From Spirogloea muscicola (Eukaryota; Streptophyta; Zygnematophyceae; Spirogloeales; Spirogloeaceae), in the NCBI GenBank assembly GCA_009602725.1, contig WELB01000049.1:385708-413435 (forward strand): a stretch of 27,728 nt of DNA. The letters are read 5' to 3'. This document shows, one piece after another, positions 12,600 through 18,380 of the stretch. Under the pieces are notes generated by a model. The model was not told the DNA's origin and made no database searches. It was given only the letters and a program-made list of their open reading frames with translations. The translations under genes and the position numbers were made by a program. Numbering within the stretch: position 1 is the first letter of the stretch; the number at the start of each line of letters is the position of its first letter.

Positions 12600-13018
12600 T
12601 TAGCGTCGTATGTACATCTTGCGCACAGAGCTAAGGAAGAACTCCCAAGATTCGTCTCCCAAGAGAATCATGTCCCCGTCCTTGTCCTGCAGTCGCGCAT
12701 GACCAATCAGGCAATTTGCTTTCAGACATGCTTCTACATCCAGAACTGACTCAGTCATCCCCCAGCATTTGCTGCTGTATTCAGACACAAAAAGGAGAAC
12801 AATGCTTCATGCTGTACCTAACTGCTGCAATGTACAGACAAAAGCCCACATGCTAAGGAAAGCTGAATATTTTACTTGGTAACTCCAATTCTGCAAGTAC
12901 CTGGTATACCACGGACGTGCCTTCGGTGACAGAGAGGAGTGCTTCGCGGAGCTCATTGGTAGAGTGAAAGCGCGAGAGGTCCACTGACACACCAAAGGGG
13001 GAACCCTCTACGAAGCAC
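12600..13018 (-). other. PB1 domain split over the last two exons
   Basis: The exon ending at 12901 carries the first half ([20 protein letters not shown] onward to VVYQ). After a 214-base intron, exon 12600-12686 carries the acidic OPCA half and the stop. The join falls after VVYQ in phase 0 and restores the pattern [16 protein letters not shown] that is typical of Aux/IAA and ARF PB1 domains. Neither half alone would be easy to recognise. Confidence 0.9.
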
Positions 13019-13268
13019 TTAACCCTGTGGCCCTGCTGAGTCCCGTCGCCACCATCTGAGCGAGGTCCCTCGTCGCTGGTATGCGACTGGCTGCCGCCGC
13101 CGCCGCCTGGCGGGGCAGCCAGACTGGCAAGCCCAGCGGGGGGGCCTCCTTGCTGTGAGAACATGCCGCTTGGCGCTGCATCAACGTCAGCGACACCTTG
13201 TGTCTGCTGCTGCGGCTGCTGCAGGTGGGCAGACTGCGGCGGCTGCGACTGCTGCTGCAAGGAGTGCA

Positions 13269-13306
<38 letters not shown>

Positions 13307-14266: not shown

Positions 14267-14302
<36 letters not shown>

Positions 14303-17300
14303 CTGTTGTTGCTGCAGCTGCTGTTGCTGAAGGAGCATGCCAACCTGCGACGATCCAAGGAGCTGCATGACCTGCGACACAGTGGCTGGGTTGGATGCCA
14401 GCTGCGCCAGCAGCGCCGCTGGGACCGGCGCGCCCTGCTCACCCCGTTCCAGCTCCACGCCAAAGAGTTTCGTGTTGCTGGAAGGAAGCGCGAGATACAA
14501 AGGGGTGCGAGCACAACTTGTTAGGCTGGACATGCTGCATCTGACTTGGGAGTGGGCACCACTGCAGCTCATATCTGAGCGAGGTGAATATCTCGGTTCA
14601 AGTCTGAATCCACCTCATTGCGTGCAAGTATAAGCAGCAGAGCTATGGTAGAGGAAGATCTGCATGCCTGGCTGTATCATCAAGCTGCTTGCCGGGTGTC
14701 CCTGCTTGAGAAGCAGGGGACATGAGGCCATTGGCCAGGCGCATGGCATCCTCGTGGCTCATCCCAGCGAGGCTCCCAAGTGCCGAGTTGCCTCCGATGC
14801 GGTTAGCTATGCCATGAACCCACGACGAGGGATCCTGCGCACAAAGTGACCACTAAGGCTTTCATTGTCTGCATTTTCAGCAGGTATTGTCATTCTTAAT
14901 CCTGGTGATACTGAAAACATTGCCATCAAACTTGCTCAAGCACAAGCTCCTTAGAGATGGAGACCATGATGAAGAGCAATAAATCCAAGAGGTCCACAAA
15001 CACAGTGAGTGGCGGCATGGCGGATAAGACCCGTTGGAGCCCACCTGCGCCTGCTGATCGGACGATGGCGTGGGTGGTGTGATGAGCGTTAAGGGCCGCT
15101 GCAGCGACGTGGAGGTGGTCTGGAATGAGCTCTGCCGTTGCCAGCTGCGAGCGCCAGCCGTGCCGCCGCCGGATGATCCATCCCCAGTGCCCGAGGGTGA
15201 GGGCTGGAAGCCCGCAGCTGGCCTCCTCTTGAAGCCTGGACGGAAGGAAATATTTAAATGCAGTGACTTGGAAAACGTCACATTAGGGTCGATATGACCC
15301 TAAGCTAACATAAAAGTGGCAGTTAAGAGTAGCTTACCTATGTACAGCTCTTGATTCTCGCCCTTCTCAAAGAGGACAATGTCCCCCGGCACCAGCAGCT
15401 TCTCTTTCACAAAGCGACTCCAACCCTTTGTCAAAACGTAACTCTGGCTGCTGTTCCAGTACGAATAGCGGAAGCGCCAGTGCTTCCCAATCTCGTCTTC
15501 AAATGAGAGTGTCTGAAAAAGCAGAGTGACGACAATTGCATGGTTTGTTATGAATAGAGGGACACAGTGCAACTACATTCGCCATTGTGTACATTGCTGG
15601 CAACTTCAAGCGACTCGGAGTTGCTTCATCACGAAAAGCAGCATACATTTTGCCATCACTTTCCTGTTTGGTGCACAGCCTACACCCACTGAAGTGAATT
15701 GACCAAGACTCGAGGAGCATGAGTGCTGGGGTAAAAGTCGAACACATGCAACCAACTAAACACTTGCCACCATCCTGACAACTTCTTATATGAAACGATA
15801 TGAAATGTTCAGGCGACTCAAGACTGCTCTATCAAGCAAAGCAGCATACACCGACGCAAACACCTTCCATCTGATGTACAAAGTACAACCACTGTATGAT
15901 ATAGCAAAAATGACAGTCCAGCCTCTCTTCGTGACTAGTCAGCTACCACAAAGACCAGGAATAGAGTAGAGCTTTGCCACTTGCCTGTGCAGGAGTTGTG
16001 CTGGTGAGGTCAAGAGGAAAGCATCTCTCTGCGTGCTGTTTGGGAATAACCAGCCGGTTCAGCTTCCCAACATCACTGGGAGTGACCTGCTTCTCAAAGA
16101 GAGGCTCCCGGAAGCCTGACCGGGAAGGATCACTCCCACCTGCTCCACTGGCGGGAGCTCGCGAGCGCGCTGCATCATCCGATGGCGCAAAGCCTGACAT
16201 GAGCTTGCTCTGCTCCAGCTCCTCATCATATGTGTGTCTCCGAAGCATGTCAACGAGCTGCACCAAAGCGCCAATGCAAGCAGGTCATGCCAAAGGACAT
16301 GCGACTTGATGCACTGGCCTCAATAGCTCGCTTGTGACAATTTAACTGCCCATAGCAGTCATAACACATTAAACAAGAATATCTGACAGAGGAGCCTGCA
16401 AGCGATGCAGTCTTGGACATCCTTCACAATGAATCCGGGCTTGTTGGTAAGTTGGTCAGCCTCGTGTCAGACCTGCTCCTTCTTGTGCGCCCGGATGAAA
16501 GCCCCCTCAGGGTCGGACTCGCGGACGGGCCGGAAGTTGGTCATCGCATCGCGGCCCCGGAACTTGATGGCAGCGCGGTCATAGGCCTTGGCAGCCGCCT
16601 CCTCGCTGTTGAACGTGCCAAGCCACACGCGCATGTGCTTCTCGTAGATCTGCGCGCCCCACCTGCCATTGGGCTGGGGCACCACCCCGCGGTACTGCGA
16701 GGAGCACAGCCGGTTGGGCTCGCTGGCATTCAACGAGCCGCCGTGGAGGTCAGTGCCTGCACCGCCTTCCTCGTCGGCGGCATCCCTGCCCTCCTCGCCG
16801 CCCTCTGTGCCGCCATCCACCTTCTTAGCCTTCCCAGACTTCTGCTTCTTGCCCCAGGCCTTCTTCCCACCAGGGCTTCCGTCGCCATTGACGTCCTCCT
16901 TCTTCACGCCCTGGACCTTGGCTGGCTCGCCGACTGCGACGCCTGCACCATTGCCGGCCGCCCCAACAGTGCCCCCTTGCCCGTTGAGCAGAGCCCCGGT
17001 CACAGCAGCTTCCAGCGCCGCCGCCATCAAAGTGGGTCCTCCTTGGACATCCTCAGGCGCCTGAACGTACGCACTTCCCTCGCCCATGGACTGCAATGCT
17101 GCTCCTTGCTCACCAAGGCCAGTTGCCTCCTCTGGATGACCTTCTGCCGCGGCATTGATGGTACTACTCTCATTGGCTTCCTTGGCAGTGCCATCTGCAT
17201 CGTTCCTCTCTGCCGGCCCTGCGCTGACTCCAAGAGCATCTGCAGCTGTTGTAAAGGATGGCGATGCTTCGGGCTTGTCCGAGGTACTCCGCGGCTCAAC

Positions 17301-18380
17301 GACTCTGGGGCTGAGCCTCCCGACTCGCCGGAACGCGCCACCGCCCTCTGCGCCCTGGCTCAACGAGGCCAAGACGCCTGCCCCGACCTCCATCTCGGGG
17401 AGGCCCATAGACCGGTCTTCCAAGGAGGTCGCTCCCATGGCTACTGCTGCCGCCGACCAGCTCTGCAGCTCTGCCGCTGCCAGCGAAGCTGGCGAGAGGG
17501 GGCCAGCCTTCTCGCCCTCGCTGGGGGCCTCTGCAGGCAGCCTTTCTTGTAGCTTGTCAATGCCTTCTCCATCAGAGCCTGATTCACAGTCCCAAGGGCT
17601 AAGTCTGACAATCACGGGGGGAGCTCCGGTGCCCTGCCCGCTGCACTGCACAACCAGGCTTTGCCAGGCTGACCCTGGGAAGCGCTCGCCATCTTTCAGC
17701 TCCTGCGCTCACCGGCAAGCCATTCCGATCAACAACAAGATCTGGCTACAAGTCATGCTGGATACTTGGCTAGTGAGGCTAAGTGTTTAAATTGCAAAGC
17801 TGCTCGCAGGCCAAAGCTCAGGCCTGCACCGCACCTGCTGTATCACCGTGCCGCGGACCCTGTCTGAACTGGCCGTGTGCTGCGCAAGCTTCACTTTCAC
17901 ACGCTTTCCAATCGGCCAGGCAGCCGGAAGATTCTTTGGGTTGCTCCCAAGGAGCTCCAGGTCCTCAGTCAGCTCTGCTGCAAGCTGGCTGCCGAGCGAC
18001 GGCACACCGCTCCAGATCTGGCCCTTGTTGCCGCCCTCAGGTAGCCTGGGGTGCGCATCTGCCTCCGGGCCGCCGTCTTCACTGACCCGGAGATGGCCGC
18101 CGGCTGCAGTGCTCTCGTTGAAAGGCTCGCCCATGAGCTGGCTGCTCTTTCGACCCGTGCTTGGCTTCAGCTGCTGCTGCTCGACGTGGCCATCCAGGGG
18201 ACTCGGGACTGCAGCCTGACTTGTGACTGCAGCGTGCGGCGACTTTATGCTCAGAAGCAATTCAGGTGGCAGACAGCTGGCGTCCTGCTCTTTGTGGGTG
18301 CTCGTCGACCTCTTAGCCTCGGGGTCGACGAGCTTCAGCGCGGGAAGGAGCGCAGGTGAGAAGCTGTCCCGCATGGGCAT
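12600..18380 (-). CDS. RAV-type AP2+B3 transcription factor with a C-terminal ARF/Aux-IAA PB1 domain
   Basis: Ten exons: 17835-18380, 16473-17645, 15985-16257, 15338-15512, 15045-15235, 14668-14834, 14027-14477, 13777-13874, 12901-13474, 12600-12686, giving about 1244 aa. Order: acidic/serine-rich N-terminus; lysine-rich patch ([15 protein letters not shown]); AP2 domain about 497-556 ([26 protein letters not shown]); RAV linker [17 protein letters not shown]3 domain about 624-722 ([40 protein letters not shown]); K-L-F-G-V at about 845-849; three polyglutamine tracts; basic [12 protein letters not shown]1 about 1175-1244. PB1 has the basic face ([13 protein letters not shown]) and acidic face ([18 protein letters not shown]), so head-to-tail association is expected. 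Role inferred: nuclear sequence-specific regulator. Two introns appear to use GC donors (15984; 14667, tentative). The start at 18380 is the first in-frame ATG, but an acceptor-like site lies just upstream (about 18408), so an earlier exon is possible. Confidence 0.93.
13205..13355 (-). repeat. CAG repeats encoding glutamine tracts (exon 9)
   Basis: An uninterrupted CTG run on the + strand (about 13270-13305) encodes a run of about 12 glutamines, flanked by shorter Q-rich stretches on both sides. The reading frame is that of the AP2-B3-PB1 gene. A long pure run of one codon suggests length instability. Confidence 0.9.
14104..14336 (-). repeat. Two further CAG/polyglutamine tracts (exon 7)
   Basis: CTG-rich runs on the + strand at about 14104-14149 and 14263-14336 encode glutamine tracts of about 9 and about 16 residues, with interspersed leucine and alanine. 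They sit downstream of the K-L-F-G-V motif in the same exon. Together with the exon 9 tract they form a Q-rich middle region like that of activating ARFs. Confidence 0.9.
15513..15984 (-). other. GC-AG intron inside the B3 domain
   Basis: The B3 domain is split by a 472-base intron whose donor reads CAG|GCAAGT and whose acceptor is TTTTTCAG. Both flanking exons are in phase 0 and rejoin the B3 sequence as [11 protein letters not shown]. No GT donor in the right phase is available at that point. CAG|GCAAGT is the standard strong GC-donor consensus. Confidence 0.75.

Follow-up and report, generated by a model that had tools for sequence, protein, structure and literature searches.

A PB1-bearing RAV gene of Spirogloea muscicola that probably also carries a homologue of the ARF ancillary domain

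The gene RAV-A of the streptophyte alga Spirogloea muscicola is located at positions 12600..18380 on the minus strand of a 27,728-nucleotide stretch (GenBank assembly GCA_009602725.1, contig WELB01000049.1, positions 385,708 to 413,435) that is referred to here as the window. The gene likely encodes a streptophyte-algal proto-RAV that also has, at its N-terminus, a homologue of the ARF ancillary domain, and this joint claim is considered the best full explanation of the sequence. The architecture of AP2, B3 and PB1 in one protein is itself already known. What the consulted accounts of proto-RAVs do not mention is the ARF_AD-like domain, which was overlooked in an earlier note on this DNA.

The joined frame of RAV-A has ten coding exons (18380-17835, 17702-16473, 16257-15985, 15512-15338, 15235-15045, 14834-14668, 14477-14027, 13874-13777, 13474-12901 and 12686-12600), encodes 1263 amino acids and contains no internal stops. 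Two further full copies, each encoding the whole protein, were identified in the same genome (C80, also L024, and C136, also L027). The window, C80 and C136 agree in all ten exons, in the exon phases and in the dinucleotides at each of the 18 splice sites. Differences in exon length are always multiples of three, and internal stops are absent from every copy. The start ATG at 18380 is also identical across the three copies, and an extra exon may exist further upstream. Introns 3 (15984-15513) and 6 (14667-14478) are GC-AG introns with GC donors that are kept in all three copies, and the remaining seven introns are GT-AG. The aligned exon bases of C80 and C136 are 90-98% identical to the window and the intron bases 76-91%, with ranges that touch (90.5% for intron 6, 89.8% for exon 8 of C136). 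The pairwise synonymous divergence (dS) among the three copies is 0.145-0.192 and the ratio of nonsynonymous to synonymous divergence (dN/dS) of the whole gene is 0.12-0.18. By region, dN/dS is 0.01-0.11 for B3 and 0-0.02 for PB1. Because the same exons, phases and splice dinucleotides occur in three copies and dN/dS is low, RAV-A is taken as one maintained gene. The three predicted copies are all maintained genes, the predicted gene is real, and its PB1 half and B3 half belong together. That exons 1-10 form one mRNA is supported by the comparative evidence, which agrees with the earlier note where ten in-phase exons were read as one leftward gene.

The profile search of the genome (153 Mb, 471 contigs), whose counts are lower bounds, returned at least 11 B3 matches. 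These comprise the three RAV-A copies, three copies of a second RAV (C107, C133, and C208), three ARFs (C17, C33, and C147) and two others. The ARF_AD matches fell on three contigs, which are those of the C17, C33, and C147 ARFs. Genome triplication has been stated for Spirogloea muscicola (PMC7994812, PMC11712027). Since two RAVs and one ARF are present in three copies each, the RAV-A triplet most likely stems from this triplication, as far as can be judged from the sequences.

The ancillary (Tudor-like) domain was recognised by Pfam, phmmer and hhalign and is encoded by two exons on the minus strand. Its first half (residues 153-182) lies at the end of exon 1 (17835..17924) and its second half (residues 183-224), which ends with LSPWDCES, lies at the start of exon 2 (17577..17702). 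When searched as a fragment, this part of RAV-A matches ARF_AD (PF06507) with 31.6 bits and an E-value of 1.5e-7, which is above the 27-bit cut-off. The corresponding fragment of the C136 copy scores 28.8 bits, and that of the C17 ARF of the alga itself scores 105.9 bits. The same stretch is overlapped by BRWD_AD with an E-value of 0.037 on the whole protein and of 0.0022 (18.1 bits) on the fragment. The phmmer search of the fragment against solved structures returned six sequences with E-values up to 10, and these include 6sdg (3.2e-4), which we take to be Marchantia ARF2, and 4ldu of ARF5 (7.4e-4), the ARF1 and ARF5 structures presumably being those of Arabidopsis. The profile of the three RAV copies was aligned by hhalign with a profile of five ARFs, which included only two of the three ARF copies of the alga itself, at 97.2% and an E-value of 4.6e-11 over 68 columns with one two-residue gap. 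The profile hidden Markov model (HMM) built from three solved-structure ARFs gives 31.5 bits on the RAV-A stretch and 10.5 bits on the best shuffle (5000 shuffles, 4123 scored). With the own ARFs added to the HMM, the values are 30.9 and 13.3 bits (4121 shuffles scored). In an eight-row alignment that also has one two-residue gap, all rows keep the residues G, R, G, S, L and V as well as the R-x-SPW-x-x-E at the end. Residues 153-222 thus look like a homologue of the ARF ancillary domain that is present in three copies and eroded in one. A single open frame (16467-17708) runs without interruption through AP2 and the second half of the domain, and because they share an exon, the fusion of ancillary domain and AP2 does not depend on any doubtful splice. 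Searches of the open-access literature, preprints and supplementary files aside, yielded no RAV described as having an ancillary domain.

The predicted protein is a RAV, because its B3 and its AP2 with linker match structures of the RAV family far better than those of ARFs or ERFs. Pfam on the whole protein identified AP2 at residues 518-565 (16554..16697; E-value of 2.2e-8, 34.7 bits with a cut-off of 33.3) and B3 at residues 646-746 (E-value of 1.3e-24). The same scan gave an FxsA match with an E-value of 0.24, which was taken as chance. Against solved structures, AP2 and the linker match TEM1 (7et4) with 140 bits and an E-value of 1.8e-40, followed by WRI1 with 77 bits. B3 matches NGA1, RAV1, and TEM1 with 140-148 bits and ARFs with 55-69 bits. 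The RAV linker VDMLRRHTY (residues 594-602, 16228..16254), which aligns with VDMLRKHTY of TEM1, is encoded at the beginning of exon 3. The first part of B3 is encoded by exon 3 (15985..16098), the second part, with WNSSQS, by exon 4 (15338..15512) and the end by the opening codons of exon 5 (15222..15235). AP2, the RAV linker and B3 follow one another in this order, and a KLFGV after B3 was found in all three copies. WNSSQS is a named RAV signature (PMC6797205), and the LFG motif of RAVs has been named as well (PMC10272232, PMC11685440). In RAV-A this B3 repression motif reads KLFGVELE (residue 864, 14447..14470; regular-expression match) and is followed by a Q-rich middle region in exons 7 to 9 (approximately 13160..14400), the lengths of these exons varying among the copies by multiples of three. 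The RAV-type AP2, linker and B3 and the Q-rich middle region described in the earlier note were thus recovered by Pfam, by the TEM1, NGA1, and RAV1 matches and from the sequence. B3 starts about 420 residues past the ancillary domain with AP2 between them, which differs from ARFs where B3 is inserted in the dimerisation domain.

PB1 is encoded by the first part in exon 9 (12901..13029), found by phmmer and with one substitution in the C136 copy, and by the acidic part with the stop codon in exon 10 (12600..12686), whose protein sequence is identical in all three copies. Pfam AUX_IAA matches the whole protein with an E-value of 8.6e-8 (best stretch at residues 1232-1261) and the fragment with 4.5e-11. 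The phmmer search with the joined PB1 returned IAA4 (1.6e-7), ARF5 (4.6e-6), and IAA17 (2.8e-5). PB1 has the lysine of RVK and the acidic stretch DKDGD...GD, which we take to be the interacting residues. The complete PB1 joined to AP2 and B3, as claimed earlier, therefore stands, and the domain search on the joined protein recovered AP2, B3, and AUX_IAA together with ARF_AD. The LxLxL motif (EAR, Aux/IAA domain I) is absent from the window and C136 proteins and occurs once in the C80 protein, at residue 142. PB1 of the own ARFs was not seen in the genome searches, a weak negative given that two of these searches missed the PB1 of the window itself.

By its predicted domains, RAV-A is a PB1-bearing RAV. 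Proteins with AP2, B3 and PB1 have been described as proto-RAVs in charophyte algae since 2018 (PMC5873896; KnRAV in PMC6797205), and the B3 domains of RAV and ARF have been reported in streptophytes only (PMC11685440). A chlorophyte origin of the genome, by which proto-RAVs would predate the split of chlorophytes and streptophytes, was rejected on account of this restriction and of the ARF_AD matches on three contigs. Bryophyte RAVs with PB1 have been reported, whereas tracheophytes have been reported to be without them (PMC11685440), so that the statement in the earlier note that land-plant RAVs lack PB1 stands for tracheophytes and does not for bryophytes. The suggestion there that the architecture bears on the origin of ARFs is upheld, with the AP2, B3 and PB1 combination in algae already published (PMC5873896, PMC6797205). 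KnRAV of Klebsormidium nitens (kfl00094_0070) resembles RAV-A in having AP2, RAV-type B3 with WNSSQS, (R/K)LFGV and PB1 of the ARF and Aux/IAA type (PMC5873896, PMC6797205, PMC10272232). KnRAV recognises the bipartite element of RAVs and has a PB1 that oligomerises (PMC6797205). In Nicotiana leaves it is able to activate the promoters of genes induced by auxin (PMC10272232). MpRAV of Marchantia is also a RAV with B3, LFG and PB1, and its PB1 self-interacts in yeast (PMC11685440). Compared by description only, both differ from RAV-A in that the accounts of charophyte proto-RAVs mention no ARF_AD-like domain before AP2 (PMC5873896, PMC6797205, PMC10272232) and that of MpRAV names no ancillary domain (PMC11685440).

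RAV-A also shares the B3 of Arabidopsis RAV1, TEM1, and NGA1 and the AP2 and linker of TEM1. We know of no ancillary domain in these three Arabidopsis proteins. They differ from RAV-A in being tracheophyte RAVs, which are reported to be without PB1 (PMC11685440). The ARFs (C17, C33, and C147 of the alga, ARF1, ARF5, and 6sdg) share with RAV-A the family of PB1 and probably that of the ancillary domain, and differ in having B3 inserted in the dimerisation domain, where RAV-A has a RAV-type B3 and AP2 and no dimerisation domain was found. PHIP/BRWD proteins are related through their cTudor, from which the ARF ancillary domain has been reported to derive (PMC11685440), and through the weak BRWD_AD match. 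However, RAV-A has no WD40 or bromodomain by Pfam and fits ARF_AD better.

Several results weigh against reading residues 153-222 as homologous to the ancillary domain of ARFs. On the whole protein, ARF_AD matches residues 153-222 with an E-value of 4.3e-6 and 26.9 bits, just below the cut-off of 27, and the fragment of the C80 copy scores 21.0 bits. The three ARF1 constructs in the phmmer search are weak matches (0.25-0.26), and an unrelated hydrolase follows at 1.2. The WDEP motif of ARFs is replaced by VQCSG. The domain is 26-29% identical to the own ARFs and 29-33% identical to the three solved-structure ARFs, with 46-54% identity between these two groups of ARFs. The dN/dS of the ancillary domain (0.15, 0.36, and 0.37) does not indicate stronger selection than that of the linker (0.15-0.19). 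In C80, FPVSALQ stands for FPGSAWQ with loss of a conserved Trp, and dN/dS is raised (0.36-0.37), as if the ancillary domain were decaying in this copy while AP2, B3, and PB1 are intact. Pfam gave no match in residues 1-150 and no dimerisation repeat was found there, a search in which no dedicated dimerisation-domain profile was used. No introns shared with the own ARFs were found by eye in the ancillary domain and B3. The ancillary intron of RAV-A is in phase 0 after GTVIQQ, and that of the own ARFs is in phase 2 about seven codons earlier (by eye). With intron positions that differ in both domains, introns were dropped as an indication that RAV-A and ARFs descend from a common source. A recent copy of a local ARF gene as the source of the domain is likewise unsupported by the identities, which are no closer to the own ARFs.

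The low identity of about 30%, the whole-protein score and the missing WDEP would also be consistent with an ordinary proto-RAV with an N-terminal match that is due to chance or to an unrelated Tudor-like domain, and the mixed profile of RAV and ARF sequences touches the Tudor of Spindlin-1 with an E-value of 0.006. This reading is quite improbable given the fragment E-value, the hhalign result over 68 columns, the kept SPW-x-x-E end and the shuffles that score far below. Introns 3 and 6 with their GC donors and intron 7 with its weak donor could point to two neighbouring genes, a RAV gene and a separate PB1 or ancillary gene, that have been wrongly joined. Such an error is very hard to reconcile with exons, phases and splice dinucleotides that are identical in three copies and with the exon shared by the ancillary half and AP2, and it is regarded as highly improbable. 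For the ancillary domain, the favoured origin, held with moderate confidence, is a lineage-specific fusion in which two exons of an ARF or PHIP gene were placed upstream of a proto-RAV, and which would be uninformative on the ancestor of RAV and ARF. It is consistent with the presence of the second Tudor-like repeat alone, with a position N-terminal to AP2 whereas ARFs have the domain after B3, and with the differing phase and position of the ancillary intron. It also agrees with the published accounts of KnRAV and charophyte proto-RAVs, which name AP2, B3, PB1 and LFG only (PMC5873896, PMC6797205, PMC10272232), and with the second RAV triplet, where the ancillary domain was not found in loci whose upstream part is mostly N in two of three. 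The domain being no closer to the own ARFs than to the solved-structure ARFs speaks against a recent copy of the local ARF gene, although fast evolution of a fused copy could also explain it.

The domain could instead be a relic of the RAV/ARF ancestor that was retained here and lost from most RAVs, as in scenario II of PMC11685440, and this is considered unlikely. A rather doubtful proposal of the same kind would be an ancestor with AP2, B3, LFG, PB1, and a Tudor-like module, from which ARFs lost AP2 and brought B3 into the Tudor scaffold and most RAVs lost Tudor. The even and deep divergence from all compared ARFs (26-33%) and the better fit of ARF_AD than of BRWD_AD argue for a relic. However, the first Tudor (dimerisation) repeat was not found, the position relative to B3 differs, and neither the ancillary domain nor B3 has introns in common with ARFs. 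The tree of nine ancillary domains gives no help to this reading. It was built without an outgroup, four of its six inner branches are unsupported, it carries a long-branch warning, and it does not place the RAV copies. It splits the RAV rows from the ARF rows with 100/100, a split that is also expected if RAV is nested in ARFs, and it is uninformative on depth because such a split says nothing on nesting. As for an outgroup, no BRWD_AD match was found in the genome, which does not establish absence, and among the 7 of 20 bromodomain places and the weak C46 place that were examined for PHIP, no ancillary-like exon was found (best E-value of 0.83).

By analogy with KnRAV, MpRAV, and AtRAV1, the AP2 and B3 of RAV-A would very probably bind a bipartite site of CAACA and a CACCTG-like element, its PB1 would very probably form homo-oligomers and its KLFGV would very probably recruit a TOPLESS-type co-repressor. 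Going by these relatives, RAV-A would act independently of auxin and would not itself be under auxin control. In the PHIP-derived scaffold of ARFs, the counterpart of the ancillary domain would be the second Tudor-like repeat. Because the ancillary domain of RAV-A lies apart from B3 and a dimerisation domain was not detected, we guess that its most likely role is that of a protein-protein adaptor and not of a part of the B3 scaffold.

RAV and ARF have been proposed to come from one ancestral gene, with the timing of the recombination with the PHIP fragment (cTudor), before the split with loss in RAVs or in ARFs only, left open, perhaps for good (PMC11685440). With a RAV that has the second Tudor repeat as an intermediate, this timing becomes testable, and the N-termini of RAVs across streptophytes would tell inheritance and late fusion apart. 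An ancillary domain outside the DNA-binding scaffold of ARFs is also useful, since in ARFs the domain is essential, apparently not as a methyl-histone reader, and its function is unknown (PMC11685440).

In the second RAV triplet (L025, L026, and L028, equal to C107, C133, and C208), WNSSQS is replaced by RTSSQT, and the C208 copy has an AP2 score at the Pfam cut-off. The 10-kb loci of this triplet showed no PB1, no LFG motif and no ancillary domain, of which a diverged copy could escape detection. No relatives of RAV-A were found in viral_contigs. In genome_contigs, one weak B3-like match of 27 residues was found in a bacterial bin (Oleiphilaceae; L041, 5001-5090), which we guess to come from algal contamination or from a restriction enzyme with a B3-like fold. 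Two other open frames were identified in the window. The frame at 6066-6830 on the plus strand has a DEAD-box helicase domain (Pfam 5.5e-16) and presumably resembles the transcription-repair coupling factor Mfd/TRCF. The frame at 26890-27381 on the minus strand has a TIMELESS domain (Pfam 1.7e-12).

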